Notes under the pieces: generated by a model
The model's database searches: none
The model's input: the letters and a program-made list of their open reading frames with translations, nothing else
What the model was told of the DNA's origin: nothing
Source of the DNA: Acidimicrobiaceae bacterium
GTDB taxonomy: Bacteria > Actinomycetota > Acidimicrobiia > Acidimicrobiales > Bog-793
Assembly (NCBI GenBank): GCA_003159795.1
Contig: PLPK01000076.1
Location: 83,331-119,390, forward strand
DNA length: 36,060 bases
Direction: 5' to 3'
Program-made: the position numbers and the translations under genes
In this document: piece by piece, positions 397 through 20,939 of the stretch
Numbering within the stretch: the stretch's first letter is position 1
Layout: each line of letters begins with the position of its first letter

Positions 397-1722
397 ATGC
401 CACCGGGGACGGCGATACTACGGGTCGTGGTGCAGCGAATGGTCCTGAGGGGCGCGCGGGTCCCCGGCGACATCGCCGTGGAGGGGGGCCGCATCGCCGC
501 GATCGGCGCGGTCGACGCCCGTCCCGGCGACCGGGTGCTCCCCTGCGACGGTGCTCTCGTCACCGCCGGGCTCATCAACTGCCACCACCACCTCTACCAG
601 TGGCTGACCCGGGGACGGGCGACGGCCTGCGACCTCTTCACCTGGCTGCAGACGCTCTACCCCGTCTGGGGGAGGATCTCGGTCGAGGACACGGCGGCGG
701 CGGCCCTCGTCGGGCTTGGCGAGCTCGCCCTTTCCGGGGCGACGACGGTGTCGGACCACCACTACGTCGTGCCCCACGGCGACGACGCCGTCTTCGACGT
801 GATCGCCGGGGCGGCGCGCACGGTCGGCGTCCGTCTGCAGCTCTGCCGCGGCTCGATGGACCTCGGCGAGAGTGCGGGGGGGCTCCCTCCCGACGCCGTC
901 GTGGAATCGATCGACGCCATCCTCGCCTCCACCGAGGCCGTCGCCGCCCGTCTGCATGACGGGGAACGGGTGATGATCTCCGTCGCCCCGTGCAGCCCGT
1001 TCTCCGTGACGACCGATCTCATGCGCGAGTCCGCCACGCTCGCCCGCCGCCTGGGACTGCGCCTGCACACCCATCTCGCCGAGACCCAGGACGAGGCGGC
1101 CCACTGTGAGGCACGCTTCGGCAAACGCCCGCTCGCGCTGATGGAGGAGCTCGACTGGCTTGGCGACGACGTCTGGTTCGCCCACGCCATCCACCTCGAC
1201 GCCGACGAGGTCGCCGCCGTCGGCCGCTCCCACACCGGCGTCGCGCACTGCCCGAGCTCAAACGCCCGCCTCGCCGCCGGGCTGTGCCCGGTACGGGGCC
1301 TCCTCGACGCGGGCGCGCCCGTCGGGCTCGGCGTCGACGGTCCCGCCTCGAACGAGATGGGCGTCCTGCTGCCGGAGCTGCGCCAGGCCCTCTACCTCGC
1401 GCGCCTGCGGGAAGGGCGGGCCGACGCCCTGTCGCCCGCCGAGGCGCTCGCCCTGGCCACCTCGGGGGGCGCCGCCTGCCTCGGACGACGCGACCTCGGA
1501 CGGCTCGAGGTGGGGGCGGCCGCCGACCTCGCCGTCTGGCCGCTGGACGACCTGGCCGACCTCCCCGACCCGGTGGACGGACTCGTGCTCGGTCCCGACC
1601 GCCGCGTCCGCCACCTCCTCGTCGCGGGCGAGACCGTCGTTTCCGACGGGAACCTCGTGGGCGTCGACCTCGCGGCCGCCCACGCTACCCTGGCACGGCA
1701 CGCCGCGAAGCTGTGGTCGTGA
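397..1722 (+). CDS. Amidohydrolase, 8-oxoguanine deaminase / SsnA-like (TrzN/AtzB superfamily)
   Basis: Metal-ligand motifs NCHHHLYQ, HTHLAET, FAHAIHL and GVDGPASNE; ends with an amidohydrolase beta-sandwich. Start could also be a few codons downstream (MVLRGARV). Confidence 0.88.
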   Translation: MPPGTAILRVVVQRMVLRGARVPGDIAVEGGRIAAIGAVDARPGDRVLPCDGALVTAGLINCHHHLYQWLTRGRATACDLFTWLQTLYPVWGRISVEDTAAAALVGLGELALSGATTVSDHHYVVPHGDDAVFDVIAGAARTVGVRLQLCRGSMDLGESAGGLPPDAVVESIDAILASTEAVAARLHDGERVMISVAPCSPFSVTTDLMRESATLARRLGLRLHTHLAETQDEAAHCEARFGKRPLALMEELDWLGDDVWFAHAIHLDADEVAAVGRSHTGVAHCPSSNARLAAGLCPVRGLLDAGAPVGLGVDGPASNEMGVLLPELRQALYLARLREGRADALSPAEALALATSGGAACLGRRDLGRLEVGAAADLAVWPLDDLADLPDPVDGLVLGPDRRVRHLLVAGETVVSDGNLVGVDLAAAHATLARHAAKLWS

Positions 1723-1792
1723 GGGTCGCGTCCCCACACGCGGCGAAGGCGGCCGGCGCGCCGGCCTGGGCGATGACGCAGGGGTTCGCACC

Positions 1793-3199
1793 ATGCTGAT
1801 CGGCGGCGGGACCGTCATCGACGAGGTGGGCGAGCGGCCCGCCGATGTGCGGGTCGGCGACGACGGCCGGGTGGCCGAGGTGGCGGCGGGGCTCACGCCC
1901 CGCCCGGGCGAGAAGGTGCACGACGCGACCGGCAAGCTCGTTCTGCCCGGGGGGGTCGACCCCCACACCCACATGCAGCTGCCGGTCGGCGCGGTGCGCG
2001 TCTCGGACGACTTCGCTTCCGGCACGCGCGCCGCCGCGCTCGGCGGCACGACGACGATCATCGACTACGTCACGCCCGAGCGCGGCGAGGACCCGCTCGG
2101 CGCCGCCGCGCGGTGGCGGACCCTCGCGGAGCCGTCGGCGATCGACTGGGGGCTGCACCTCAGCTTCACGGCCGTCGTGGCCGAATCGGTCGTCGCGGCC
2201 GCGGTCGAGGACGGCATCACGTCATTCAAGCTCTACCTCGCCTATCCCGACCGCCTGCAGGTCGACGACGGCACCGTCGTCGCGCTGATGCGCGCAGCCC
2301 GGCGCCAAGGAGCCCTCGTCACCCTGCACTGCGAGAACGGCGCGGCGATCGAGGAGCTCCGGCGGGAGGCGCTGGCGGAGGGGCGCACGGGGGTCATCGA
2401 GCACGCTCGCACCCGGCCCCCGCTCCTCGAGGCCGAGGCGACGAGCCGCGCCGCGGTGCTCGCCGAACTGACCGGCGCCGCGATCTACATCGTGCACGTC
2501 TCCTGCGCCGACGCCCTGGCGGCGATCCGCGCGGCCCGGGAGCGGGGCGTCCGGATCCAGGCCGAGACCTGCCCGCAGTACCTGTTCCTCGACGAGACCC
2601 GGCTCGAGGGTCCCGACGCGGAGGACTTCGTCTGCACCCCGCCGCTGCGGCCGACGCGGCACGCCGCGAGCCTGTGGGCAGGACTGGCCAACGGGTGGAT
2701 CCAGACCATCGGCACGGACCACTGCCCGTTCACCCGCGCCGACCGCCGCGTCGGGACGACCGGGGAGCCGGGGGGCGTGCGCGACTTCACTCAGATCCCC
2801 GGCGGGCTCCCGGGGGTCGAGACCCGGCTCGCCCTCATCTGGTCTGCGGTGCGCGACGGGCGGATCACCGCGGCGGACTGGGTGCGGCTGTGCTGTGCGG
2901 CGCCGGCGCAGGCCTTCGGGCTGTGGCCGCGGAAGGGCTCGCTCGCCGCCGGTGCCGACGCCGATGTGGTGGTCTGGGATCCCGAAAGGCGTCACGGGCT
3001 CGGGGCCGGGGACCTCGACATGGCCGTCGACCACTCCCCCTACGAGGGCATGGTCGCCACCGGCTGGCCCGAGCTGGTGCTGAGCCGGGGCCGGGTGATC
3101 GTGCGGGACGAAAGCTTCGTCGGCGACCCGGGCTGGGGCCGCTACCTCGCCCGCTCGCCTCTCTCCCCCGACGGGGGCGCGCCCGTGACGGGACGTTAG
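1793..3199 (+). CDS. Dihydropyrimidinase / D-hydantoinase (HyuA-like)
   Basis: GGVDPHTHMQLP, carboxylated-Lys region TSFKLYLAYPDRLQ, VTLHCENG, YIVHVSC, GTDHCPF; start at ATG 1793 rather than the long upstream extension. Confidence 0.9.
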   Translation: MLIGGGTVIDEVGERPADVRVGDDGRVAEVAAGLTPRPGEKVHDATGKLVLPGGVDPHTHMQLPVGAVRVSDDFASGTRAAALGGTTTIIDYVTPERGEDPLGAAARWRTLAEPSAIDWGLHLSFTAVVAESVVAAAVEDGITSFKLYLAYPDRLQVDDGTVVALMRAARRQGALVTLHCENGAAIEELRREALAEGRTGVIEHARTRPPLLEAEATSRAAVLAELTGAAIYIVHVSCADALAAIRAARERGVRIQAETCPQYLFLDETRLEGPDAEDFVCTPPLRPTRHAASLWAGLANGWIQTIGTDHCPFTRADRRVGTTGEPGGVRDFTQIPGGLPGVETRLALIWSAVRDGRITAADWVRLCCAAPAQAFGLWPRKGSLAAGADADVVVWDPERRHGLGAGDLDMAVDHSPYEGMVATGWPELVLSRGRVIVRDESFVGDPGWGRYLARSPLSPDGGAPVTGR

Positions 3200-3235: not shown

Positions 3236-3970
3236 ATGGTGGACACCGCACAGTACTGGCGGCCGCAGTCGTTGGAAGAGGCGTTCTCGCTGCTCGAGAG
3301 CCCGACAGCGGCGGTAATCGGTGGGGGGACGAGCCTCAACGCGCGCGCCGGCGGTGATGCCCGCGAGGTGATCGACCTGCAGGCGCTCGGCCTCGACATG
3401 ATCGCCCGGCGGCCCGACGGGACCCTCGCCATCGGCGCCATGACGAGACTGCAAGAGATCGTCGATTGTGACGAGGTCCCCCCCGTCGTGCGAGAGGCCG
3501 CGCGCCGGGAGGCGCCGAGCACCCTGCGGGCGCAGGCGACCATCGGCGGGTGCGTCGCCCCGGCCGAGTTCGACAGCGAACTGCTCGCCACGCTCCTCGC
3601 CTACGACGCCCACGTCGAGATCACCCGCCGAGACGGCAGGTCCGAGATCACGCTCGAGGTGCTCTTCGGCCGGCTCCCGCTCGAGCACGGAGAGGTCATC
3701 ACCTCCGTGTCGCTCGACACGCGCGGGACCGCCCATCTCGCCCGCACGGCGCGCACGTCGGCCGACCGCGCGATCGTCGCGGCGGTCGCACGCAACCTCG
3801 ACGGCGAGCGGCGGTTGGCGCTCGCGGGGGTCGCGACCACGCCGGTCGTCGTCGAGCCGGCGGCCACCGACCTGCTCACTCCGCCCGGGGACTTCCGGGG
3901 ATCGAGCGGGTACCGGAGCGCACTCGCCGCCGTGCTGAGCGCGCGTGCCCTCGCGGCGGTCGAGCGATGA
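3236..3970 (+). CDS. FAD-binding subunit of xanthine-dehydrogenase-type Mo hydroxylase (XdhB/YgfM-like), short C-terminal domain
   Basis: AVIGGGTSLNARAGGDAREVIDLQAL and ATIGGCVAPAEFDSELLATLLAYDAHVEI resemble FAD_binding_5/CO_deh_flav_C motifs; directly upstream of the Mo subunit. Confidence 0.85.
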   Translation: MVDTAQYWRPQSLEEAFSLLESPTAAVIGGGTSLNARAGGDAREVIDLQALGLDMIARRPDGTLAIGAMTRLQEIVDCDEVPPVVREAARREAPSTLRAQATIGGCVAPAEFDSELLATLLAYDAHVEITRRDGRSEITLEVLFGRLPLEHGEVITSVSLDTRGTAHLARTARTSADRAIVAAVARNLDGERRLALAGVATTPVVVEPAATDLLTPPGDFRGSSGYRSALAAVLSARALAAVER

Positions 3971-4047: not shown

Positions 4048-6990
4048 ATGACGGAGATTGACCTCTCGGTCAACGGCAGGCGGCACTCCGTCGAGTGCGA
4101 GGCGCATACGACGCTGCTCACGGTGCTGCGCCGCCTGGGGTGCTTCAGCGTGCGGTTCGGTTCCGCGACGGGCGAGACCGGCGCGGCGGCCGTCCTCGTC
4201 GACGGTCGGCTCGTCGCCGCCGACGTGCTGCTCGCCGCCCAGGCCGTCGGTCACGAGATCACCACGGTCGAGGCGCTCAACGTCGCCACCGGCGAGTACC
4301 ACCCGATCCAGGAGGCCTTCGTCGAGGCCGGGGCCATGCAGTCGGGTTACTCGGCGGGTGCGATGGTGCTGGCGACGAAGGCGCTGCTCGAGGCGAACCC
4401 CGACCCCACCGAGGCCGAGATCCGTGACGCGCTGAGCGGGATCCTCGACCGGGAGACCGCCTATGTGAAGGTCGTCGAGGCGGTGAAGCGTGCCGCGGCC
4501 GCTCTGCGCGGCGAGAAGTGCCGCCCGATGGACCCGGTCGTGGTCGACGCACTCGCCGGATACAAAGCGTCGCCGGCGGCCACGGTGACGGAGGTCGACG
4601 GCGAAGTCTCGATGGCGGTGCCGCGTCTCGTCATCTCCCCCGACGTGCCCCAGACCGCCGTCGTCGGCAAGCCCGAGACGAAGGTCGACGCCCTGCGGCT
4701 GGTGAAGGGCAATCCTGCCTTCACCGACGACATCGAGCCGCGGGGCATGCTCTTCGCCAAGGTGCTGCGCAGCCCGCACGCCCACGCCCGCATCGTCGCG
4801 ATCGACGACTCGGCGGCGGCGGCGCTGCCCGGCGTGCACGCCGTGCTCCACTGCCGGAACACCGCCCGCGTGAAGTACGCCTCAGGCGGGCAGAGCTGGC
4901 CCAACCCGCCCCCGTGGGACCAGGTGAGCTTCGACGACAAGGTCCGCCACGTGGGCGACCGGGTCGCCGCCGTGGCGGCGGAGTCGACCGAGATCGCCGA
5001 GGAGGCCTGCCGCCTGATCAAGGTGACCTACGAGGAGCTGCCCGCCGTCTTCGACGAGGTCGAGGCCATCAAGCCCGGCGCGCCGGTCATCCACGACGAG
5101 ACGGACACGGAGGGGATCTTCGACTCGGGGCGCAACATCAGTCACCACATCGAGGGACAGACCGTCTCCGACGAGGCGCTGGAGGCGGCGTTCGCCGGCG
5201 CCGACCGCGTCTTCGAGGAGACCTTCCACGTCCAGCAGGTCCAGCACACGCCCATCGAGCCCCACATCACGATCGGGTGGCTCGACGAGGACGAGCGGCT
5301 GGTGCTGCGCACCTCCACCCAGGTCCCGTTCCACGTGCGCCGGATGGTGGCGCCGCTTCTGGGCCTCCCCGTCAAGCGCATCCGCGTCATCAAACCCCGC
5401 CTCGGTGGCGGCTTCGGGGCGAAACAGGAGATGGTGATCGAGGACATCGTCGGCCACCTCGTGCTCGCCACCCGCCACCCGGTCCGGCTCGAGCTCACCC
5501 GCGCCGAGGAGTTCATCTCGACCCGCGTCCGTCACGCCATGACGGTCACGTTCCGCTCCGGCGTCGACGCCGAGGGCCGGCTCGTCGCCCAGGACATGTC
5601 CGTGGTCTCCAACACCGGCGCCTACGGCACCCACGGGTTCACGGTGAACTCGGTCAGCGGCCAGCACGGCCTGTCGCTCTACAACTGCCCGGCGAAGCGC
5701 TTCCGCTGCGACGTCGCCTACACGAACCGCCCCGTGGCGGGCGCCTTCCGCGGCTACGGCGCGCCCCAGGCGTTCTTCGCCCTCGAGAGCCACATGGACG
5801 ACATCGCCAGGGCCCTCGGGCTGGACCCCTACGAGATCCGCGAGCGGAACTGGGTTCGAACCGGCGACCCCCTCGACATCGTGCTGCGACTCGGCGAACG
5901 CGGTGGCGTCGAGGACCTCGCGCCCGAGGACATCCCCGTCATCACGAGCTGCGGCCTCGAGGAGTGCGCCCTGCAGGGCCGGCGCGCCATCGGCTGGGAG
6001 CGGAGGTCCGACCCCGCCTGGCACCGGCCCGCCGACCGCCCGCACATCCGCCGGGGCCTCGGCATGGCGCTCGCCATCCAGGGCTCGGGGATCCCGCTCG
6101 TCGACATGGCGGCCTGCTCGATCAAGATCAACGACGACGGTTCGTTCAACATGCTCGTGGGCGCGACCGACCTCGGCACGGGCTCGGACACCGTGCTCGC
6201 CCAGATCGCCGCCGAGGTGCTCGGCGTGCCGATCGAGGACATCCTCGTCTACTCGTCCGACACCGACTTCACGCCGTTCGACGTCGGCGCCTACGCCTCG
6301 AGCACGACTTACATCTCGGGGGGAGCGGTGAAAAAGGCCGCCGAGGCGGCCCGGGCAAGGATCGTCGTCCGGGCGGCCAGACTGTTGGGCGTCGACGACG
6401 CCTCGACGATCGAGCTGCACGACCGCCGAGCCTGGGCGCTCGACGGGCGCTCGGTGTCGATGGGAGATATCGCCCTCAACGCGCTGCACACCGAGGACCA
6501 GGAACAGATCATGGGCACCGCCAGCCACGTGTCGCCCGAGTCGCCACCGCCGTTCGCAGCCCAGCTCGCCGAGGTCGAGGTGGACATCGAGACCGGCCAG
6601 GTGACGGTCACGAAGCTCGTCACCGCCGTCGACTGCGGCGTGCCGATCAACCCGATCACGGCGAGCGGCCAGGTCGAGGGGGCGATGCTGCAGGCGCTCG
6701 GCTACGCGCTCTGCGAGGAGGTCGTGCTCGACGAAGCCGGCCGGCCGCTCAACGACCGGTTCGGTCCCTACTGGATATTCCGCGCCGATGACACGCCGCC
6801 GATGGAGGTCTACCTCGTGCAGACGATGGAGCCCTCCGGCCCCTACGGCGCGAAGGCGGTGGCGGAGATCCCGATCGACGACGTCGCGCCGGCGGTGCGC
6901 AACGCGATCCTTGACGCGACAGGCGTCGCCATCAACGCGATCCCGTTCACCCCCGAGCGCGTCTGGCGGGCCCTGCAGCCGGCGACGTGA
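4048..6990 (+). CDS. XdhD-like molybdopterin-binding hydroxylase with degenerate N-terminal 2Fe-2S domain
   Basis: GGGFGAKQEM, GAFRGYGAPQ, TDLGTGSDTVLAQIAAEVL and YGAKAVAEIPIDDVAPA Mo-subunit motifs; N-terminus aligns with XDH small subunits but lacks Cys ligands. ATG 4048 has SD GGGGAGA; an ATGA-overlap start at 3967 is the alternative. Confidence 0.88.
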   Translation: MTEIDLSVNGRRHSVECEAHTTLLTVLRRLGCFSVRFGSATGETGAAAVLVDGRLVAADVLLAAQAVGHEITTVEALNVATGEYHPIQEAFVEAGAMQSGYSAGAMVLATKALLEANPDPTEAEIRDALSGILDRETAYVKVVEAVKRAAAALRGEKCRPMDPVVVDALAGYKASPAATVTEVDGEVSMAVPRLVISPDVPQTAVVGKPETKVDALRLVKGNPAFTDDIEPRGMLFAKVLRSPHAHARIVAIDDSAAAALPGVHAVLHCRNTARVKYASGGQSWPNPPPWDQVSFDDKVRHVGDRVAAVAAESTEIAEEACRLIKVTYEELPAVFDEVEAIKPGAPVIHDETDTEGIFDSGRNISHHIEGQTVSDEALEAAFAGADRVFEETFHVQQVQHTPIEPHITIGWLDEDERLVLRTSTQVPFHVRRMVAPLLGLPVKRIRVIKPRLGGGFGAKQEMVIEDIVGHLVLATRHPVRLELTRAEEFISTRVRHAMTVTFRSGVDAEGRLVAQDMSVVSNTGAYGTHGFTVNSVSGQHGLSLYNCPAKRFRCDVAYTNRPVAGAFRGYGAPQAFFALESHMDDIARALGLDPYEIRERNWVRTGDPLDIVLRLGERGGVEDLAPEDIPVITSCGLEECALQGRRAIGWERRSDPAWHRPADRPHIRRGLGMALAIQGSGIPLVDMAACSIKINDDGSFNMLVGATDLGTGSDTVLAQIAAEVLGVPIEDILVYSSDTDFTPFDVGAYASSTTYISGGAVKKAAEAARARIVVRAARLLGVDDASTIELHDRRAWALDGRSVSMGDIALNALHTEDQEQIMGTASHVSPESPPPFAAQLAEVEVDIETGQVTVTKLVTAVDCGVPINPITASGQVEGAMLQALGYALCEEVVLDEAGRPLNDRFGPYWIFRADDTPPMEVYLVQTMEPSGPYGAKAVAEIPIDDVAPAVRNAILDATGVAINAIPFTPERVWRALQPAT

Positions 6991-8839: not shown

Positions 8840-8975
8840 GCCGGTTCGGTGGGGCAACCTCTGGCCCCCGGAGCGTCAAGTGATTGCTGTTGCAAGCAGC
8901 GCACCCCGCCCTTTTCCGAAGAGCCGAGAAAGGGCCCCGGATAGGCTGCGACCGTCGTGGGGGGCAGGTGCTGAC

Positions 8976-11585
8976 GTGGTGACTCGGGACGGCTCGGACG
9001 GTCCCGGAACCGTCGCGTTCGTCCTCAACGGCAATCCCGTCGAGGTGCGCCGCGACCACCCGCACCTCCTCGCGGCGCTGCGCGAGGGGCTCGACGTCAC
9101 ATCCCCCAAGGACGGGTGCTCGCCGAGCGGCCAGTGCGGCTGTTGCACGGTGCTCCTCGACAACAAGGCCGTGGTGGCCTGCCAGGTCTCCTTGGAAAGG
9201 GCCCAAGGTCGCTCCGTCACGACCCTCGAGGGGTTCGACCCCGCCGAGCGGCGTCGCTACGCGACCGCCTTCGTCGCGACCGGCGCCCTGCAGTGCGGCT
9301 TCTGCACGCCGGGGATCGTCGTCCGCCTGAAGGCGCTGATCGACAGACAAGGCGCCAGCCTCACCCGCGACGAGGCCGCCAGGCACCTCGGGGCCCACCT
9401 GTGCCGCTGCACCGGGTACGCGAAGATCCTCGACGCCGCCGAGCTGCTCGCCAGCGGCGCGCAACCCAGAGCCCGCGCGGCGGGCGGGATCGGCGCCCGC
9501 GCCGCCCGCTACGACGGCCCCCGCCAGGCGCTCGGTGACGCCGTCTACATCGACGACCTGCGCCGTCCGGGCATGCTGCACGGGGCGGTCCGGCTCGCCG
9601 ACCACGCCCGGGCCGACGTCGTGCGGATCGACACCGTGGCCGCCCGCGCCCTGCCCGGCGTCGCGGCGGTGCTCACTGCCGCCGACGTGCCGGGCGAGGC
9701 CCGCGTCGGCATCGCAGTGTCCGACTGGCCGGTCTTCATCCCGGAAGGCGGCCGTACCTCGTATCTCGGTGACGTCCTCGCCATGGTCGTCGCCGATTCG
9801 CGCGAAATCGCCCGGCGAGCCGCCGCCCTCGTCGAGGTCAGCTACCGGGTGCTGCGTCCTTTCACCGACCCCGTGGCGACGCTCGCCGACGCAGAGGACG
9901 CCGTCTGGCAGCAGCCGGGCAACGTGCTGGCGCGCTCCGCCTACCGCCGGGGCGACGTCGACGCGGCCCTTGGTGCCTCGGCGCACCGCGTCCACGAGGT
10001 CTTTTCGACCCAGCGGGTCGAGCACGCCTTCCTCGAACCGGAGTCCACCCTCGCCGAGGCCCGCCCCGACGGCACCGTGCTGGTGTACTCGGGGGGACAG
10101 GGCGTCTGGGACGACCGGCGCCAGATCGCGGCGGTGCTGGGACTCCCCGAGGACCGGGTGCTCGTCGAGCAGGTCGCCAACGGCGGCGCCTTCGGCGGCA
10201 AGGAGGACCTCTCGAACCAGGCGCAGACGGCGCTGGCGGCCTGGCTGCTCCGGCGCCCCGTAAAGTGCACGCTCTCACGAGAGGAGTCGCTGCTCCTCCA
10301 CCCGAAGCGCCACCCGTTCCGGCTCGAGTACTGGGCCGGCTGCGACGGGGCCGGGCGGTTGACCGCCCTGCGGGCCCGGCTCATGAGCGACAGCGGGCCG
10401 TACGCCTCGGTCGGGAGCCACGTGCTCGAGCGCGCCGCCGGGCACGCCTCCGGGGCGTACGTCGTGCCGGCGATCGCCGTCGAGGCCGTCGCCGTGCGGA
10501 CGAACAACCCCGTCGCGGGAGCGTTCCGCGGCTTCGGCGCCAACCAGGCCCAGTTCGCGATGGAGGGGGTCATCGACCGCCTCGCCGAGCAAGTGGGGCT
10601 GAGCGGCTGGGAGATGCGGGTCCGCAACGTCGTCACGCCCGGCGCCGTCTGGGGCCCCGGGCAGGTGATGGATGAGGGCAGCCGGGGGGCGCTGGCGTGC
10701 CTGGAGCGCGTGAAGCCCGCTTACGAGGAGGCAAGAGCGGCCGGCAAGGCGGTGGGGCTCGGGCTCGGGCTGAAGAACACCGGGCTCGGCAACGGGGTCG
10801 TCGAGGTGGCCCGGGCCATCGTGCGGTTCGACGAGGGCGGCGGCGTCGAGGTGCGCCACTGCTGGAGCGAGATGGGACAGGGCATCCACACCGTCGCCCG
10901 CCAGGTCGCCGTGGAGGAGCTCGGCGTTGCCCCTGACCGGGTCCGGGTCGTCGTCGACACGTCCCGCGAGCTCGGCGCCGGCCAGACGACCGGCTCGCGG
11001 GGCACCCTCATGGGCGCCGGCGCCATCGCTGCCGCCTGCCGTCGCGCCAACGAGGACGGCCGCCTGGTGGGGGTCGACTACCTCGGCGAGCACCGGGTCG
11101 ACTGGACGGACTCGGCCTCGGCGGGCACGCCCCGCCCGACGGTCCACGCCGCCTTCTCTTATGCCGCCCAGCTCGTCGTCATGGACCGCGGATCGGGACG
11201 CATCGATCGCGTGCTCGCCGTCCACGACGTCGGGCGGGCCGTCAACCCGTTGGCCTGCGAGGGCCAGATCCAGGGCTCCGTGCACATGGGGCTCGGCTAC
11301 GCCCTCTCGGAGGACTTCCCCACGGACGAAAGCGCGCGGCCCCGCAACCTGACGCTGCGCAGCCTCGGGATCCTGCGCGCGAAGGACGTACCCCCGATCG
11401 ACGTCGTGCTCATCGAGGTGCCCCAGCCCCGCTCCCCCTACGGCATCAAGGGGATCGGCGAGATCGGGCTCGTGCCGACGGCCGGCGCCGTCGCGGCGGC
11501 GCTCCACGACCTCGACGGGGTCTGGCGCGCCACCCTTCCGATGTCCACTCCCCCGGCCGAAACCGCCGATTCCGGGACCGACTGA
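8976..11585 (+). CDS. Xanthine-dehydrogenase-type hydroxylase, fused 2Fe-2S and Mo-binding subunits (resembles the so-called selenium-dependent XDH family)
   Basis: Intact DGCSPSGQCGCCTVLLD, LQCGFCTPGI and HLCRCTGY; GGAFGGKEDLSNQ, GAFRGFGANQ, AVHDVGRAVNPLACEGQIQGSVHMGLGYAL, IKGIGEIGLVP. GTG 8976 or 8979 proposed as start. Confidence 0.88.
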   Translation: MVTRDGSDGPGTVAFVLNGNPVEVRRDHPHLLAALREGLDVTSPKDGCSPSGQCGCCTVLLDNKAVVACQVSLERAQGRSVTTLEGFDPAERRRYATAFVATGALQCGFCTPGIVVRLKALIDRQGASLTRDEAARHLGAHLCRCTGYAKILDAAELLASGAQPRARAAGGIGARAARYDGPRQALGDAVYIDDLRRPGMLHGAVRLADHARADVVRIDTVAARALPGVAAVLTAADVPGEARVGIAVSDWPVFIPEGGRTSYLGDVLAMVVADSREIARRAAALVEVSYRVLRPFTDPVATLADAEDAVWQQPGNVLARSAYRRGDVDAALGASAHRVHEVFSTQRVEHAFLEPESTLAEARPDGTVLVYSGGQGVWDDRRQIAAVLGLPEDRVLVEQVANGGAFGGKEDLSNQAQTALAAWLLRRPVKCTLSREESLLLHPKRHPFRLEYWAGCDGAGRLTALRARLMSDSGPYASVGSHVLERAAGHASGAYVVPAIAVEAVAVRTNNPVAGAFRGFGANQAQFAMEGVIDRLAEQVGLSGWEMRVRNVVTPGAVWGPGQVMDEGSRGALACLERVKPAYEEARAAGKAVGLGLGLKNTGLGNGVVEVARAIVRFDEGGGVEVRHCWSEMGQGIHTVARQVAVEELGVAPDRVRVVVDTSRELGAGQTTGSRGTLMGAGAIAAACRRANEDGRLVGVDYLGEHRVDWTDSASAGTPRPTVHAAFSYAAQLVVMDRGSGRIDRVLAVHDVGRAVNPLACEGQIQGSVHMGLGYALSEDFPTDESARPRNLTLRSLGILRAKDVPPIDVVLIEVPQPRSPYGIKGIGEIGLVPTAGAVAAALHDLDGVWRATLPMSTPPAETADSGTD

Positions 11586-11587
11586 GA

Positions 11588-11619
11588 CCGCCGGGTGCCG
11601 GCGACCGCTCAACCGGCGG
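11588..11619. terminator. Possible bidirectional terminator hairpin between convergent hydroxylase and adenine deaminase genes
   Basis: CCGCCGG (11588-11594) pairs with CCGGCGG (11613-11619); alternative tight stem CGCCGG-gtg-CCGGCG inside; overlaps the ade stop; no T-run. Confidence 0.3.
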
Positions 11620-13333
11620 CGACGTCGACGATCGAGAAGGTGGACACGTCCAGCAGGCCCCGGTCGGTCATCCGCAGCTCGGGGATCACCGTGAGGCCCA
11701 GGAACGAGAGCTGCATGAACGGCGCGTCGAGCGTCAGCCCGAGCCGGGTCGAGACGACGTCGGCGAGCTCTTTCACCTCGCGGGCGGTCTCGACGGCGTC
11801 CTTGTCGCTCATCAGGCCGCCGATCGGCAGCCGCACCTCGCCGATCACGTGCCCGTCGAGCATCGCCACCTGCCCGCCGCCGAGCTCGACGAGCCGCGCC
11901 ACGGCGGCCGCCATCTCGGCCGGACCGGTTGGGTCCCGCGTCCCCACGACCATGCAGTTGTGGGCGTCGTGGGCGACGGTCGAGGCGATCGCCCCCCGCG
12001 CCAGGCCGAACCCGGCGACGTAGCCAACCCCGATCCGCCCGGTGTTCCGGTGGCGCTCGACGGCGGCAATGCGCGCCACGTCCTGGGCCGAGTCGGTGAG
12101 GTCAACGACGAGGTTCCTCGTCGACAGCGATCCTGACTCCACGCCGATCACCCGGGCCTTGCCACCCGAGGGCTCGGCGAACTCGAAGGCCGCCGGACCC
12201 GGCAGTTCGTCGAGGTGCACGGAGTGGAACATCCACTCGGGCGCCGATGCGGCGGGGACGACACCGGGGAGGATCTGGCCGTCGACCGCCACGAGCCTGC
12301 CGGCCTGCCAGACGCGGGCCGGCTCGAAGGTCGCCAGGTCGTCGAAGCAGAGCACGTCGGCCTGGTAGCCGGGGGCGAGCCAGCCGAGGCGGTCGAAGCG
12401 GTGGTAGTCGGCGGGGTTGGCGGTCGCCAGCACGAGTGCCTCCTCGACCGGGAGCCCGGCGGCGACCGCCAGTCGCACGCAGTCGTTCATGTGGCCGTCG
12501 TGGAGCAGCGTGTCGGGCTCACGGTCGTCGGTGCACAGACAGACCCGGTCGGTGCCGTGGGCCAGCACCGAGGGAATGAGATCGGCGAGGTTGCGCGAGG
12601 CCGAGCCCTCGCGGATGAAGATCCACATCCCCTTGCGGCGCTTCTCGTCGGCCTCGTCGGCATCGGTGCACTCGTGGTCGGACTCCACACCGGCGGCGAG
12701 GTAGGCGTCGAGGGCCCGGCCGCGGATGCCGGGAGCGTGCCCGTCGACCCGCCGGTGGCCCGCCGCGGCGATCTTGGCGAGCACCTCGGCGTCACCCCGG
12801 ATGACGCCGGGGAAGTCCATCACCTCGGCGATGCCGATCGCGCCGTGGTGCTCGAGGAGTTCGACGAGCTTGGCGTGGTCGAGCTCCGCCGCCGGACTCT
12901 CGAAAGGCGACGCCGGCACGCAGCTCGAGGCGTAGATGCCGAAGGTGAACGGCAGGTCCCTCGCCGCGTCGGCAAGGGCGACCACGCCGTCCACCCCGAA
13001 GACGTTGGCGATCTCGTGCGGGTCGGCGGCGACGGCGGTCGTCCCGTGCGGCATCACGGTCCGCACGAACTCGTCGACCCAGAGCTTGGTCGACTCGAGG
13101 TGCATATGCGGGTCGATGAAGCCGGCGGTCAGCGCGGCGCCGGCGACGTCGATCACCTGGGCGGCGTCGCGGGGCCCCCAGCCGGCGATCACCCCGTCGA
13201 CGATGGCGAGGTCGGTGGCGACCCATTCCCGGGTGCCCGGGACGAAGACCCGGCCCCCCTTGATCAGCAGGTCGGCGGGCTCGTCGCCGCGCGCAACGGC
13301 GAGCACCCGGGGCGTACCCCTCCGCGCCTGCAT
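11609..13333 (-). CDS. ade: Adenine deaminase
   Basis: DLLIKGGRVFVPGTREWVATDLAIVDGVIAGWG, GFIDPHMHLESTKL, PHGTTAVAADPHEIANVFG and the C-terminal GIGYVAGFGLARGAIASTVAHDAHN-type block. Confidence 0.92.
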   Translation of the reverse strand: MQARRGTPRVLAVARGDEPADLLIKGGRVFVPGTREWVATDLAIVDGVIAGWGPRDAAQVIDVAGAALTAGFIDPHMHLESTKLWVDEFVRTVMPHGTTAVAADPHEIANVFGVDGVVALADAARDLPFTFGIYASSCVPASPFESPAAELDHAKLVELLEHHGAIGIAEVMDFPGVIRGDAEVLAKIAAAGHRRVDGHAPGIRGRALDAYLAAGVESDHECTDADEADEKRRKGMWIFIREGSASRNLADLIPSVLAHGTDRVCLCTDDREPDTLLHDGHMNDCVRLAVAAGLPVEEALVLATANPADYHRFDRLGWLAPGYQADVLCFDDLATFEPARVWQAGRLVAVDGQILPGVVPAASAPEWMFHSVHLDELPGPAAFEFAEPSGGKARVIGVESGSLSTRNLVVDLTDSAQDVARIAAVERHRNTGRIGVGYVAGFGLARGAIASTVAHDAHNCMVVGTRDPTGPAEMAAAVARLVELGGGQVAMLDGHVIGEVRLPIGGLMSDKDAVETAREVKELADVVSTRLGLTLDAPFMQLSFLGLTVIPELRMTDRGLLDVSTFSIVDVAAG

Positions 13334-13479
13334 CCCACGACTCTAGGCGCCCGCCTCCTCAAAATCGGTCACCTGGAAGCCGATCGTCGGCCGATACGCG
13401 ACGAGTGACGAGGGTGGGAGCCTCCTCCCGGTGGCCTCGGTACGCTCGGCTGGCCAGCACGAGGGGAAGGACGCACGAC

Positions 13480-14127
13480 GTGGAGGGCCAAGGCACTGAA
13501 CCGGGCGAGTTTGGCCCCGTCGCCGGCGTCGTGCTCGCGGCCGGCAAGGGACGGGGCTTCGGCGCCCCGAAGGCGCTCGTATCGTTCGCTGGCGAGATGC
13601 TCGTCGAGCGTGCGATACGCACCCTGGCTGCGGGCGGCTGCCGGCCGGTCATCGTCGTGCTCGGCGCCTCCGAAACGGAGATCCGCGCGCGCTGTGACCT
13701 CGGCGGTGCCGTCGTCGCGGTGAACGAAGCGTGGTCCGAGGGGATGGGCGGGTCGCTGCGGGTCGGGCTCGAGGCGGCGCGGGGATGCGAGGCCAAGGCC
13801 TGCCTCGTCGCCCTGGTCGACCAGCCGCTCGTCACGCCCGCCCTCGTCGCCCGCCTGATCGGCGCCTGGGAGAGCGGCGCGCGGGCCGCCGTCGCCGCCT
13901 GGTCGGGCGAGGGCCTGACCCCGGTCGTCCTCGACCGCTCGCTGTGGGAGGCGGTCGCCGAGCGGGCCGTCGGCGAAGTTGGCGCCCGGGCGCTTTTGCG
14001 CGAGCGCCCCGAGCTCGTCACTCTCGTCGACTGCGCAGACGTGGGCGCGCCCGACGACATCGACACCGTCGCCGACCTGAAGCGCCTGGAAGCCGACCGG
14101 CTCGCGTGGCCGACCGCACGGCCCTAA
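13480..14127 (+). CDS. MobA/MocA-like nucleotidyltransferase (molybdenum cofactor cytidylyl-/guanylyltransferase family)
   Basis: VAGVVLAAGKGRGFGAPKALVSFAGEMLVERAI; DQPLVTPALVARLI; GTG start at 13480 with SD GAGGGGAAGG. Confidence 0.82.
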   Translation: MEGQGTEPGEFGPVAGVVLAAGKGRGFGAPKALVSFAGEMLVERAIRTLAAGGCRPVIVVLGASETEIRARCDLGGAVVAVNEAWSEGMGGSLRVGLEAARGCEAKACLVALVDQPLVTPALVARLIGAWESGARAAVAAWSGEGLTPVVLDRSLWEAVAERAVGEVGARALLRERPELVTLVDCADVGAPDDIDTVADLKRLEADRLAWPTARP

Positions 14128-18119: not shown

Positions 18120-20939
18120 GTGTCACTGATGCGAATCTTCAGGCCGCACCCGAGTCGCCTGGTCCGAAAGGCCATGGCAATCGGGGGCGCGGTCGCAGTT
18201 TCGGCCGGGATGATCGCCATTATCGGGACGGCCCTTCTCGCCACTCCCGCCGCGGCCGTGATCGCGCCGACGTTCCCGTCCGGCAGCCCGGTCCACACCT
18301 ACACCGTCACGACGACGACGGACCCGGTGTCGGGGACCGCCTGTCCCGCCACCAACTCCGATCCCTGCAGCCTGCGCGCCGCGGTCACCCAGGCGAACAC
18401 CGACGGCACCCTCGACGAGATCGTCCTGGGGGCCGGCACGTACACGCTCGAGAATGGCCTCGGGCAGGGCGTCCTCGACGTCTCGGACACCGCTGGGTTG
18501 ATCATCTCCGGAAACGGCGCCTCGTCGACCATCATCCAGCGTGACACCTCGGCCGCCGACTACGGCGTCCTCGAGAGCTTCGACGCTCCGCTCGAGCTCA
18601 CGGGCCTCGGTATCGAGCACGGCGACGCCGAGTGGGGCGGTGGCATCTACCTCATCAATGCCAACCTCTTCGCCTCGGGCGTCACCGTCCGGGACAACAC
18701 CAGCACCTACTCCGGCGGCGGCATCTACGCGAACAGCGGAAGCTACGTCTCCGGGACGGATCTCACCGTGTCGGACAACACAGCCGGCGACGGGAGTGGC
18801 GGTGGCCTCTACACCCTGGGCACGGACGGCGTCACGCTCTCCGGCAGCACCGTGTCGGACAACACCTCATGGAACAACTCGGGCGGCGGCGTCTACACCG
18901 CCGGAGATGGACCGGCGATGCTCACATCCGACGTGTTCTCCGGCAACACCGCGGCCTCCGATGGCGGCGCGGTGTACCTCTCCGCGGGGAGCTCGTCGAG
19001 TTCGGCGTTCGTGGCCGACACCTTCACCGGCAACACCGCGGGTGCTGGTGGTGCCGTCTTCCAGAGCGACGGGGGCCTCGTCATCTCCGACACCTCGCCG
19101 GTGAGCGACGCCTACGTCGGCCCGAGCAGGTTCACCGACAACGTGGCGATGGACGACTCGGGTGGCGCCCTCTACCTCGACTCCTCTGACGGAACCCAGT
19201 GCGGGACCCTGCCCTCGACCGACCTCTTCGGCTCGTTGGACGCCAACGTCTGCGTCACCGACACGACGTTCCACTCGAACGTCGCGGTGTACTCCAGCGA
19301 AGTCTCGGGCGGCGCGATCCGGAATGAAAACGCCTACGCGCTGCTGAGCCACGACACGCTGACCGGCAACACCGCCCTCGCCGATGACGGCAGCGCCGCA
19401 GGCGGCGCGATCTACAACGACGAGGAGATGGCGATCACGGACTCGACCATCAACTCGAACAGTGCCGTCGGCTACGGCTACGGCGACGGTGGCGAAGGCG
19501 GCGCCGTTTACAACAACTCCGGCTACGACCTGTCGATCTCACGTAGCACCATCAACAACAACTCGGTGTCGTGCACGAGCGAGGCATGCGACAACGAGGG
19601 TGGCGCTCTCGTCAGCCTCGGCTACGCGGTCATCAGCCACTCGCAGGTGAACGGAACCTCCGCCACCTCGAGCTGTTCGGATGCCGAATGCGACATCTAC
19701 GGCGGCGCGATCTACGAGACCGGCGAGATGTTGATCAACGCGACCGAGATCGATCACACCACGGCCTCCGCGAGCGTGGCGGGAAACGATGACGCCTACG
19801 TCTACGGCGGCGCGATCTACGCAGATGGCGAGTTCAGCCTCCACTCGTCGGATGTGAACGCCACGTCCGTCACCGCGACGAGCGGGCTGGACGGGGCCGC
19901 AGTCTATGGCGGCGCCATCGCCAACGTCTCGCTTTTCGGGATGGAGTCTGACTCGGTCGACGGCACCTCTGTCACGGTGAACGTGCCGAGCTGGCTCGAG
20001 GTCTACGGCGGGGCGGTCGCGAACAGCGATGGAGAGTTCTGGCTGGAGCGCAGCGCCATCGTCGGGACCACGGAGCACCTGACTGGTCCCCACTCCCCCG
20101 GTGACGTCCAGGGTGGCGGCTTTTACGAGTCAGGTCTCGGCACCTTCGCCGCCGAGAACGACACGATCGCCAACAACACCGGCGCCGACCAAGGTGGGGG
20201 CATCTACTACTACAACGACTACACGGGCCAGCAGATCACGAACCTGACAATCAGCGGGAACGCGGTCACCGGGGTCGGCCAGGGCGGAGGTATCTACTTC
20301 GATAACTCCACCGATGCACCCACCGTCACCGGGACGATCCTCGCCGGCAACACCGCCTTCGGCCTGCCGAACGAGTGCGCCAACCCGGAGTCGTACAACT
20401 CAGGTGGCTACAACATCGACGACACCAACACCTGCCTGCTGGACGGGACGGGGGACCAGGTGAGTGTGAACCCCCACCTCGCCCCGCTTGGCACCTGGGG
20501 ACGGACGACGTTGGAGTTCGCACTCCTGCCCGGCAGCCCGGCGATCGCGGCGGAGGACAACGCCGTCTGCCCGGACACGGACCAGCACGGGATCGCCCGC
20601 CCCGTCTCGGGGTCCTGTGACGTGGGCGCGACGGAGCTCGTCTTCAAGACGGTCACGCCCACCGAGACCGACACCGTCCACCCGTCGGGGACCGTCTCGT
20701 ACGGCAACACGGTCAAGCTCCACGTCCACCTCTCAGGCAGCGAGGGGAAGGTGTTCGGGAGCGTGAAGGTCAGTCTCGGTGCCAAGGCACTCTGTGACCA
20801 GGTGCTCGCCAAGGGGAGTACGGACTGCAAGTTCAACTCCCACGCCCTCGGGCACGGAAGCCACAAGCTCACCGTCTCCTACAAGGGTGAGGGTTGGTAC
20901 CGCTCGCTCAGCAAGGATGTCGTCGTCAAGACGTCCTGA
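18120..20939 (+). CDS. Large secreted right-handed beta-helix (choice-of-anchor Q / polymorphic-outer-membrane-like) protein with C-terminal Ig-like domain
   Basis: Signal peptide (KAMAIGGAVAVSAGMIAIIGTALLATPAAA), CSLRAAVTQAN motif, many GGG(I/V)Y / SGNTA turns, LLPGSPAIAAEDN..CPDTDQHGIARPVSGSCDVGATEL block, C-terminal Ig-like repeat; SD AAGGGGGAACA before GTG. Confidence 0.85.
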   Translation: MSLMRIFRPHPSRLVRKAMAIGGAVAVSAGMIAIIGTALLATPAAAVIAPTFPSGSPVHTYTVTTTTDPVSGTACPATNSDPCSLRAAVTQANTDGTLDEIVLGAGTYTLENGLGQGVLDVSDTAGLIISGNGASSTIIQRDTSAADYGVLESFDAPLELTGLGIEHGDAEWGGGIYLINANLFASGVTVRDNTSTYSGGGIYANSGSYVSGTDLTVSDNTAGDGSGGGLYTLGTDGVTLSGSTVSDNTSWNNSGGGVYTAGDGPAMLTSDVFSGNTAASDGGAVYLSAGSSSSSAFVADTFTGNTAGAGGAVFQSDGGLVISDTSPVSDAYVGPSRFTDNVAMDDSGGALYLDSSDGTQCGTLPSTDLFGSLDANVCVTDTTFHSNVAVYSSEVSGGAIRNENAYALLSHDTLTGNTALADDGSAAGGAIYNDEEMAITDSTINSNSAVGYGYGDGGEGGAVYNNSGYDLSISRSTINNNSVSCTSEACDNEGGALVSLGYAVISHSQVNGTSATSSCSDAECDIYGGAIYETGEMLINATEIDHTTASASVAGNDDAYVYGGAIYADGEFSLHSSDVNATSVTATSGLDGAAVYGGAIANVSLFGMESDSVDGTSVTVNVPSWLEVYGGAVANSDGEFWLERSAIVGTTEHLTGPHSPGDVQGGGFYESGLGTFAAENDTIANNTGADQGGGIYYYNDYTGQQITNLTISGNAVTGVGQGGGIYFDNSTDAPTVTGTILAGNTAFGLPNECANPESYNSGGYNIDDTNTCLLDGTGDQVSVNPHLAPLGTWGRTTLEFALLPGSPAIAAEDNAVCPDTDQHGIARPVSGSCDVGATELVFKTVTPTETDTVHPSGTVSYGNTVKLHVHLSGSEGKVFGSVKVSLGAKALCDQVLAKGSTDCKFNSHALGHGSHKLTVSYKGEGWYRSLSKDVVVKTS

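Follow-up and report, generated by a model that had tools for sequence, protein, structure and literature searches.

The window analysed here, a stretch of 36,060 nucleotides from an Acidimicrobiaceae bacterium (GenBank assembly GCA_003159795.1, contig PLPK01000076.1, positions 83,331 to 119,390), encodes at 4048–6990 a molybdenum (Mo) hydroxylase in which all eight cysteine ligands of the two [2Fe-2S] clusters are replaced and the ferredoxin-like fold that carried them is kept. In our best overall explanation, which we regard as evenly balanced between right and wrong, the N-terminal domain is a cluster-free scaffold, the enzyme would convert urate to yanthine, and its Mo site would be recharged in a redox-neutral manner.

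All eight cluster ligands are replaced

The gene and its parts are as follows; the cysteine-free domain, and the enzymes sharing it, are called ghosts below.

4048–6990, forward strand: Mo hydroxylase gene, an open frame of 980 amino acids with its ATG at 4048.
4048–4512, forward strand: ghost [2Fe-2S] domain (residues 1–155), a beta-grasp part and a helical bundle, with no ligand Cys.
4162–4224, forward strand: former FeSII (plant-type) ligand positions S39 (4162–4164), T44 (4177–4179), A47 (4186–4188) and D59 (4222–4224).
4342–4455, forward strand: former FeSI ligand positions S99 (4342–4344), S102 (4351–4353), D134 (4447–4449) and E136 (4453–4455).
4513–4662, forward strand: linker (residues 156–205), fast-evolving by identity and omega.
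4663–6990, forward strand: molybdopterin-binding catalytic domain (residues 206–980), assigned by Pfam MoCoBD_1, MoCoBD_2 and Ald_Xan_dh_C.
5896–5898 and 6865–6867: catalytic-domain residues E617, the match to E606 of Escherichia coli XdhD, and E940, the catalytic Glu of GAKAVAE.

Pfam recognises PF02738, PF20256 and PF01315 in the protein (the a/b hammerhead and both Mo cofactor-binding domains), and the GGGFG motif and catalytic Glu of the xanthine oxidase family are present. Of the eight cysteines that hold the two [2Fe-2S] clusters in this family, the sequence has none (0/8). The three former ligand blocks read VRFGSATGETGAAAVLVDG, MQSGYSAGAM and GILDRETAYVK; in the alignment, C44, C49, C52, C64, C103, C106, C140 and C142 of E. 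coli XdhC correspond to S39, T44, A47, D59, S99, S102, D134 and E136, which bears out an earlier sequence-only reading of this DNA that had found the three blocks free of Cys. That reading also counted a single Cys in the domain, away from the ligand sites; none is indeed at a ligand site, but there are two, C17 and C32. Neither is invariant.

The ligand pattern is all-or-none. Cys occupies none of the eight ligand columns in all 80 relatives, drawn from a one-genome-per-species collection, or in E. coli XdhD. A further 24 ghost loci, every one 0/8, came from a survey that covered 296 genomes of the class; these may partly be the same genomes as those of the 80 relatives, and the total is about 104 loci. 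Intact controls were 8/8 in 38 relatives, except two haloarchaeal paralogues at 7/8, so that the count across homologues proposed by the sequence-only reading separates ghosts from intact enzymes. The window itself contains an intact control, the fused Mo hydroxylase at 8865–11585, with all eight ligands (CCCCCCCC). Because the pattern is all-or-none across about 100 independent assemblies, chance and sequencing error are excluded, and the window enzyme almost certainly binds neither [2Fe-2S] cluster.

Retention of the clusters, or of another metal, through Ser, Asp and Glu side chains of the domain is very improbable. In its favour, D134 and E136 are invariant, as are R135, T137 and Y139 (55 sequences), and S39 is nearly invariant in the actinobacterial clade. 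However, a full ligand set is absent: the replacement at position 3 is A, G, S or D, position 5 is sometimes Gly, and E. coli XdhD has another replacement set (D,A,D,S / S,N,S,D). The AlphaFold model also does not place residues 38–44, the former FeSII loop, which is the only stretch of the domain with a predicted local distance difference test (pLDDT) score below 50. An alternative ligand set was rejected, as four consistent ligands per site were not found.

The two 7/8 subunits belong to haloarchaeal urate clusters (L098:11268–11846 and L099:3785–4330; Haloarcula and Natrinema). In both, the third FeSII ligand is Ser and the adjoining paralogue is intact; no flavin gene is annotated beside either.

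The ghost domain is kept by selection

AlphaFold predicted the ghost domain alone with a pLDDT of 85.6 and a predicted template modelling score (pTM) of 0.83, and Foldseek matched the model to solved [2Fe-2S] small subunits with TM-scores of 0.80–0.86. Fer2_2 (PF01799) still recognises residues 73–147 with 70 bits. The model of the whole protein has a pTM of 0.81, and the protein aligns with Desulfovibrio aldehyde oxidoreductase along its length. Identity to the window protein averages 65% over residues 1–150, 70% in the Mo domain and 36.6% in the linker; median omega, the ratio of nonsynonymous to synonymous substitution rates, is 0.106 in the ghost domain, 0.098 in the Mo domain and 0.28 in the linker. 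The ghost domain is under purifying selection and therefore not decaying. By these sequence-based measures, the N-terminal ferredoxin-like domain is a structural scaffold under purifying selection; the earlier claim of a cluster-free fold held by selection agrees with the omega values and with the confident AlphaFold model, a check which that reading had proposed.

A pseudogene, decay or an assembly error has a negligible chance of being the explanation: although the window genome is a draft in 86 contigs and the relatives are mostly metagenome-assembled, the frame is open, omega is low, about 104 loci and E. coli XdhD are in the same state, and xdhD was found in 5157 of 5426 complete E. coli genomes (95%). 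Decay and assembly error were rejected on the ligand pattern, omega and this last count.

Probable repeated loss of the relay

The closest relative found for E. coli XdhD is XdhD of Cetobacterium somerae. The Mo-domain tree joins these two as sisters (100/100) and sets the actinobacterial ghosts apart as a clade of their own (100/100). Forcing all ghosts together on the Mo domain cost 113.6 log-likelihood units (approximately unbiased (AU) test, p 1.2e-4). In the small-domain tree, with ligand columns masked, the E. coli–Cetobacterium pair (100/98) stands next to the actinobacterial ghosts; a single ghost clade there had an AU p of 0.01. One origin of the ghost state shared with E. coli XdhD was thus rejected by AU tests on both domains. 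From these trees, the iron-sulfur (Fe-S) relay probably disappeared on two or more occasions; otherwise Cetobacterium would have to have regained eight Cys, which is implausible, as its N-domain pairs with the E. coli ghost domain. Sampling outside Actinomycetota comprised E. coli, Cetobacterium, haloarchaea and other plasmid-borne enzymes. In viral contigs, the sole match was one E. coli fragment.

The sequence-only reading had described the N-terminus of E. coli XdhD as Cys-poor and suggested that this may be a family trait. E. coli XdhD does lack all eight ligands, but a single inherited trait did not survive the analysis: the nearest NCBIfam model for the window protein, TIGR03313 (XdhD), gives 691.5 bits, below its curated cut-off of 1101.9; E. 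coli XdhD is sister to an eight-Cys enzyme; and the AU tests reject common origin.

E. coli XdhD–YgfM (TIGR03313/TIGR03312) resembles the window system in its fused small–Mo chain, in the flavin subunit encoded directly upstream, in the loss of the eight Fe-S ligands with E606 and the catalytic Glu kept, and in its reductive urate cluster. It differs in identity (∼41% in the Mo domain, 31% in the ghost domain), in its replacement residues and in the independent loss of the clusters; the window protein lies below the XdhD cut-off. The Cetobacterium enzyme (L133) shares the fused layout, the flavin subunit and a urate cluster with SsnA, DpaL, D-aminoacylase and a UacX-like dehydrogenase, whereas its eight Cys and flavin-site Asp are present. 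The intact Mo enzymes of actinobacterial urate clusters (L106–L110, L139–L143), the nearest intact relatives in Actinobacteria, are 50–54% identical in the Mo domain, have the E606 equivalent and lie near the same carbamoyltransferase pair and carbamate kinase; they differ in having a separate small subunit with 8/8 Cys and a canonical flavin subunit.

No description of the missing Fe-S ligands in XdhD was found in the accessible literature that was searched. Where E. coli xdhD is split (NZ_CP119441.1, NZ_AP042478.1), the Cys-free N-terminal fragment is annotated as '2Fe-2S iron-sulfur cluster-binding protein', a label to which the fragment's own sequence gives no support.

The window enzyme is a putative urate dehydroxylase

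The genes upstream in the window are the following.

397–1722, forward strand: 8-oxoguanine deaminase-like amidohydrolase (NF006055, 537.8 bits, above the cut-off of 532).
1811–3199, forward strand, start approximate: D-hydantoinase/dihydropyrimidinase, HyuA-type (TIGR02033, 473.5 bits, above cut-off).
3236–3970, forward strand: flavin adenine dinucleotide (FAD)-binding subunit, YgfM-like, directly upstream of the ghost gene (best NCBIfam model TIGR03312).

E. coli XdhD–YgfM turns urate into yanthine in a reductive urate pathway, and E606 of XdhD has been proposed to orient urate and is named for yanthine formation (PMC12507026). Clostridium sporogenes XdhAC has also been shown to convert urate to yanthine. 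All ghost enzymes compared have Glu at the position of E606, as do the Cetobacterium enzyme and the intact actinobacterial sisters; E. coli XdhA has a gap there. In the active-site alignment, the ghost clade retains the catalytic Glu together with the TQVP and GGGFG motifs.

The gene context points the same way. The part of the same contig just to the left of the window encodes a nucleobase permease, two pyridoxal phosphate (PLP) enzymes, SsnA (422 bits against a cut-off of 444), an F420-type LLM oxidoreductase, two carbamoyltransferases, carbamate kinase and an intact three-subunit xanthine dehydrogenase (XDH). In Nocardioides (L013), a single cluster holds both PLP enzymes, SsnA, LLM, both carbamoyltransferases, hydantoinase and XDH, together with the flavin subunit and the ghost enzyme. 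LLM homologues lie near 49 of the 80 ghost loci. Association with SsnA, HyuA, YgeW/YqeA-type genes and yanthine reductase is found on the own contig and in the Nocardioides cluster, and both gene sets match the reductive urate pathway of PMC12507026. According to that paper, SsnA occurs in Actinomycetota, and the step after yanthine formation is proposed to be catalysed in Chloroflexota by an F420-dependent reductase. Because the catalytic Glu and the match to XdhD E606 are kept in a urate-pathway gene context, we consider the window enzyme likely to be a urate dehydroxylase, which would open the pathway by taking the oxygen from C6 of urate and so forming yanthine (2,8-dioxopurine).

It is rather unlikely that the enzyme acts instead on another substrate, or catalyses a non-redox reaction such as hydration or isomerisation, within the same purine gene cluster. 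The window gene adjoins hydantoinase and 8-oxoguanine deaminase and not SsnA, and ghost and intact-type enzymes coexist in three genomes (G539, G590 and G630), perhaps with different jobs. Against this, the E606 match and the catalytic Glu are retained, the Nocardioides ghost gene lies inside a full urate cluster, and the intact sisters adjoin the same carbamoyltransferases and carbamate kinase.

In these three draft genomes (L172–L177), yqeB/yqeC stand beside the ghost enzyme and not beside the intact one; the coexisting enzymes may differ in role. Two carbamoyltransferase genes adjoin carbamate kinase at L091:9517–12470 (G000:C54), L139–L143 and L179; both ureido groups of a urate-derived intermediate may be cleaved to carbamoyl phosphate, yielding two ATP. 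Genes of the reductive urate pathway, a pathway described as anaerobic, are found in Acidimicrobiia (window 397–3199, L091) and Nocardioides. Both groups are known mostly as aerobes.

Electron supply to the Mo site

From the ligand pattern, we strongly infer that the flavin subunit and the Mo site are not connected by an Fe-S relay. The sequence-only reading had asked how electrons leave that site; the direction is probably the reverse. The Mo site of the characterised relative reduces urate, and the question is therefore how electrons arrive.

The flavin side has changed as well. The GGT and TxGG double-Gly FAD motifs are kept at 99–100% in 77 ghost-linked flavin subunits, the window subunit having GGT and TIGG. 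An Asp conserved in intact homologues (76%; D123 of E. coli XdhB) is absent from the window subunit, from all the ghost-linked ones (0/77) and from YgfM; Cetobacterium and five intact actinobacterial sisters retain it. With the motifs kept and the Asp gone, the ghost-linked flavin subunit probably still binds FAD, in an altered site, and the loss of the Asp in both ghost lineages indicates a change on the flavin side too.

Because both relay modules changed in both ghost lineages, we rank first, tentatively, a redox-neutral, transhydroxylase-like cycle. A second substrate would be hydroxylated in the pocket of the Mo site and would thereby recharge it; turnover of xanthine to urate and then of urate to yanthine would be one example. 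The flavin subunit would be kept chiefly as a structural element, or to provide slow or auxiliary input. The proposed analogy is with pyrogallol-phloroglucinol transhydroxylase, in which oxygen abstraction and insertion occur simultaneously at one Mo; that enzyme moves oxygen out of one substrate into another, as proposed here, but belongs to the dimethyl sulfoxide (DMSO) reductase family and has an unrelated fold (PMC10420851). Within the xanthine oxidase family, 4-hydroxybenzoyl-CoA reductase (1rm6) is a reductive dehydroxylase and the best PDB sequence match of the Mo domain; it differs in having two [2Fe-2S] clusters and, per the title of its paper, an extra [4Fe-4S] cluster.

Several observations weigh against redox-neutral recharging. 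The upstream flavin subunit partners the ghost gene in 74 of 80 relatives, which would be odd if the subunit carried no electrons, and the near-complete conservation of its FAD motifs points in the same direction. NADH was the sole added reductant in the yanthine assay of E. coli XdhD–YgfM (PMC12507026), which favours an external donor; neither a minus-NADH control, nor metal analysis of XdhD, nor mention of the missing clusters was found in the accessible part of that paper, and its main text contains neither 'cysteine' nor '2Fe-2S'. Finally, E. coli delta-xdhA cells consume no xanthine (PMC12507026), which argues against oxidation of xanthine by XdhD under those conditions; if redox-neutral recharging holds, the E. 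coli co-substrate may not be xanthine.

Ranked behind it, and somewhat unlikely, is a route in which reduced nicotinamide adenine dinucleotide (phosphate) (NAD(P)H) still supplies the electrons, which pass from FAD in the YgfM-like subunit to Mo with no clusters between, through an altered docking, movement of the flavin domain or side-chain hopping. No cluster-free route from flavin to Mo is known, and XDH structures speak against one, the distance between flavin and Mo being too long for direct tunnelling. It draws on the assay with NADH, on the co-purification of a ∼30-kDa protein, putatively YgfM, with E. coli XdhD (PMC12507026), on the FAD subunit with its motifs in both ghost lineages, and on an aromatic residue that all actinobacterial ghosts compared have acquired at position 37. 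However, YgfM in the published model has the same placement as in Rhodobacter XDH (PMC12507026), the flavin-site Asp is lost in both ghost lineages, each ghost domain has only 0–2 Trp and no Trp chain, and the Y101 and Y139 positions are aromatic in intact homologues as well. A Trp/Tyr hopping chain gained in ghosts was not found, residue 37 being the single gained aromatic.

Less probable still is a separate carrier that reduces the Mo-pterin at the surface, such as F420H2, ferredoxin, flavodoxin or, in E. coli, AegA/YgfT or YgfK. The F420-type LLM oxidoreductase of the own-genome cluster, with its homologues near many ghost loci, would suit such a carrier, and E. coli AegA has been proposed to serve formate-dependent urate degradation (PMC8097209). 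However, LLM is more simply the next enzyme, yanthine reductase, as proposed for Chloroflexota (PMC12507026); a ferredoxin gene is absent from the window operon, and the ghost domain still fills the face where a donor must dock. A second small subunit supplied in trans was also considered; the only such genes beside the ghost genes belong to separate complete XDH sets.

A YqeB homologue follows the ghost gene at 57, and YqeC at 40, of the loci compared. In the window genome, YqeB gave no match and the best SelD match reached 44 bits against a cut-off of 125. Selenium is therefore not required here, and a selenium cofactor as a substitute for the relay was rejected.

Other features of the window

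The remaining features lie downstream of the ghost gene.

8865–11585, forward strand: second fused Mo hydroxylase, Se-dependent-XDH type (TIGR03311, 820 bits, cut-off 830).
11609–13333, reverse strand: adenine deaminase (TIGR01178, 509.8 bits, above cut-off).
13405–14127, forward strand: MocA/NboR-like nucleotidyltransferase (Mo cofactor modification).
Downstream of 13405–14127, to about 23.9 kb: candidate Mo cofactor and molybdate transport genes, named by reading translations.

The enzyme at 8865–11585 thus resembles Se-dependent XDH, with intact clusters, in a genome with neither YqeB nor a convincing SelD. A large Thr/Ser-rich open frame at 18120–20939 has an apparent signal peptide and repeat-like segments.

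Implications

Two [2Fe-2S] clusters are treated as defining xanthine-oxidase-family enzymes, and annotation still names XdhD an Mo/Fe-S-binding subunit. XdhD starts urate breakdown in gut bacteria, which gives the finding relevance to gout. In a further-reaching proposal that we hold to be speculative and somewhat doubtful, the ghost enzyme would be free of any electron chain: Mo would shift oxygen from one purine to another (xanthine C8 and urate C6 being one example), urate would be reduced without a reductant, and the wiring would have been shed at least twice, in E. coli-type XdhD and in Actinobacteria, once it was no longer needed. The occurrence of cluster-free enzymes and intact sisters in one pathway offers a natural comparison for relay-free recharging of Mo, and the reductive urate pathway, described as anaerobic, now reaches Acidimicrobiia and Nocardioides and there probably includes an F420-linked step.

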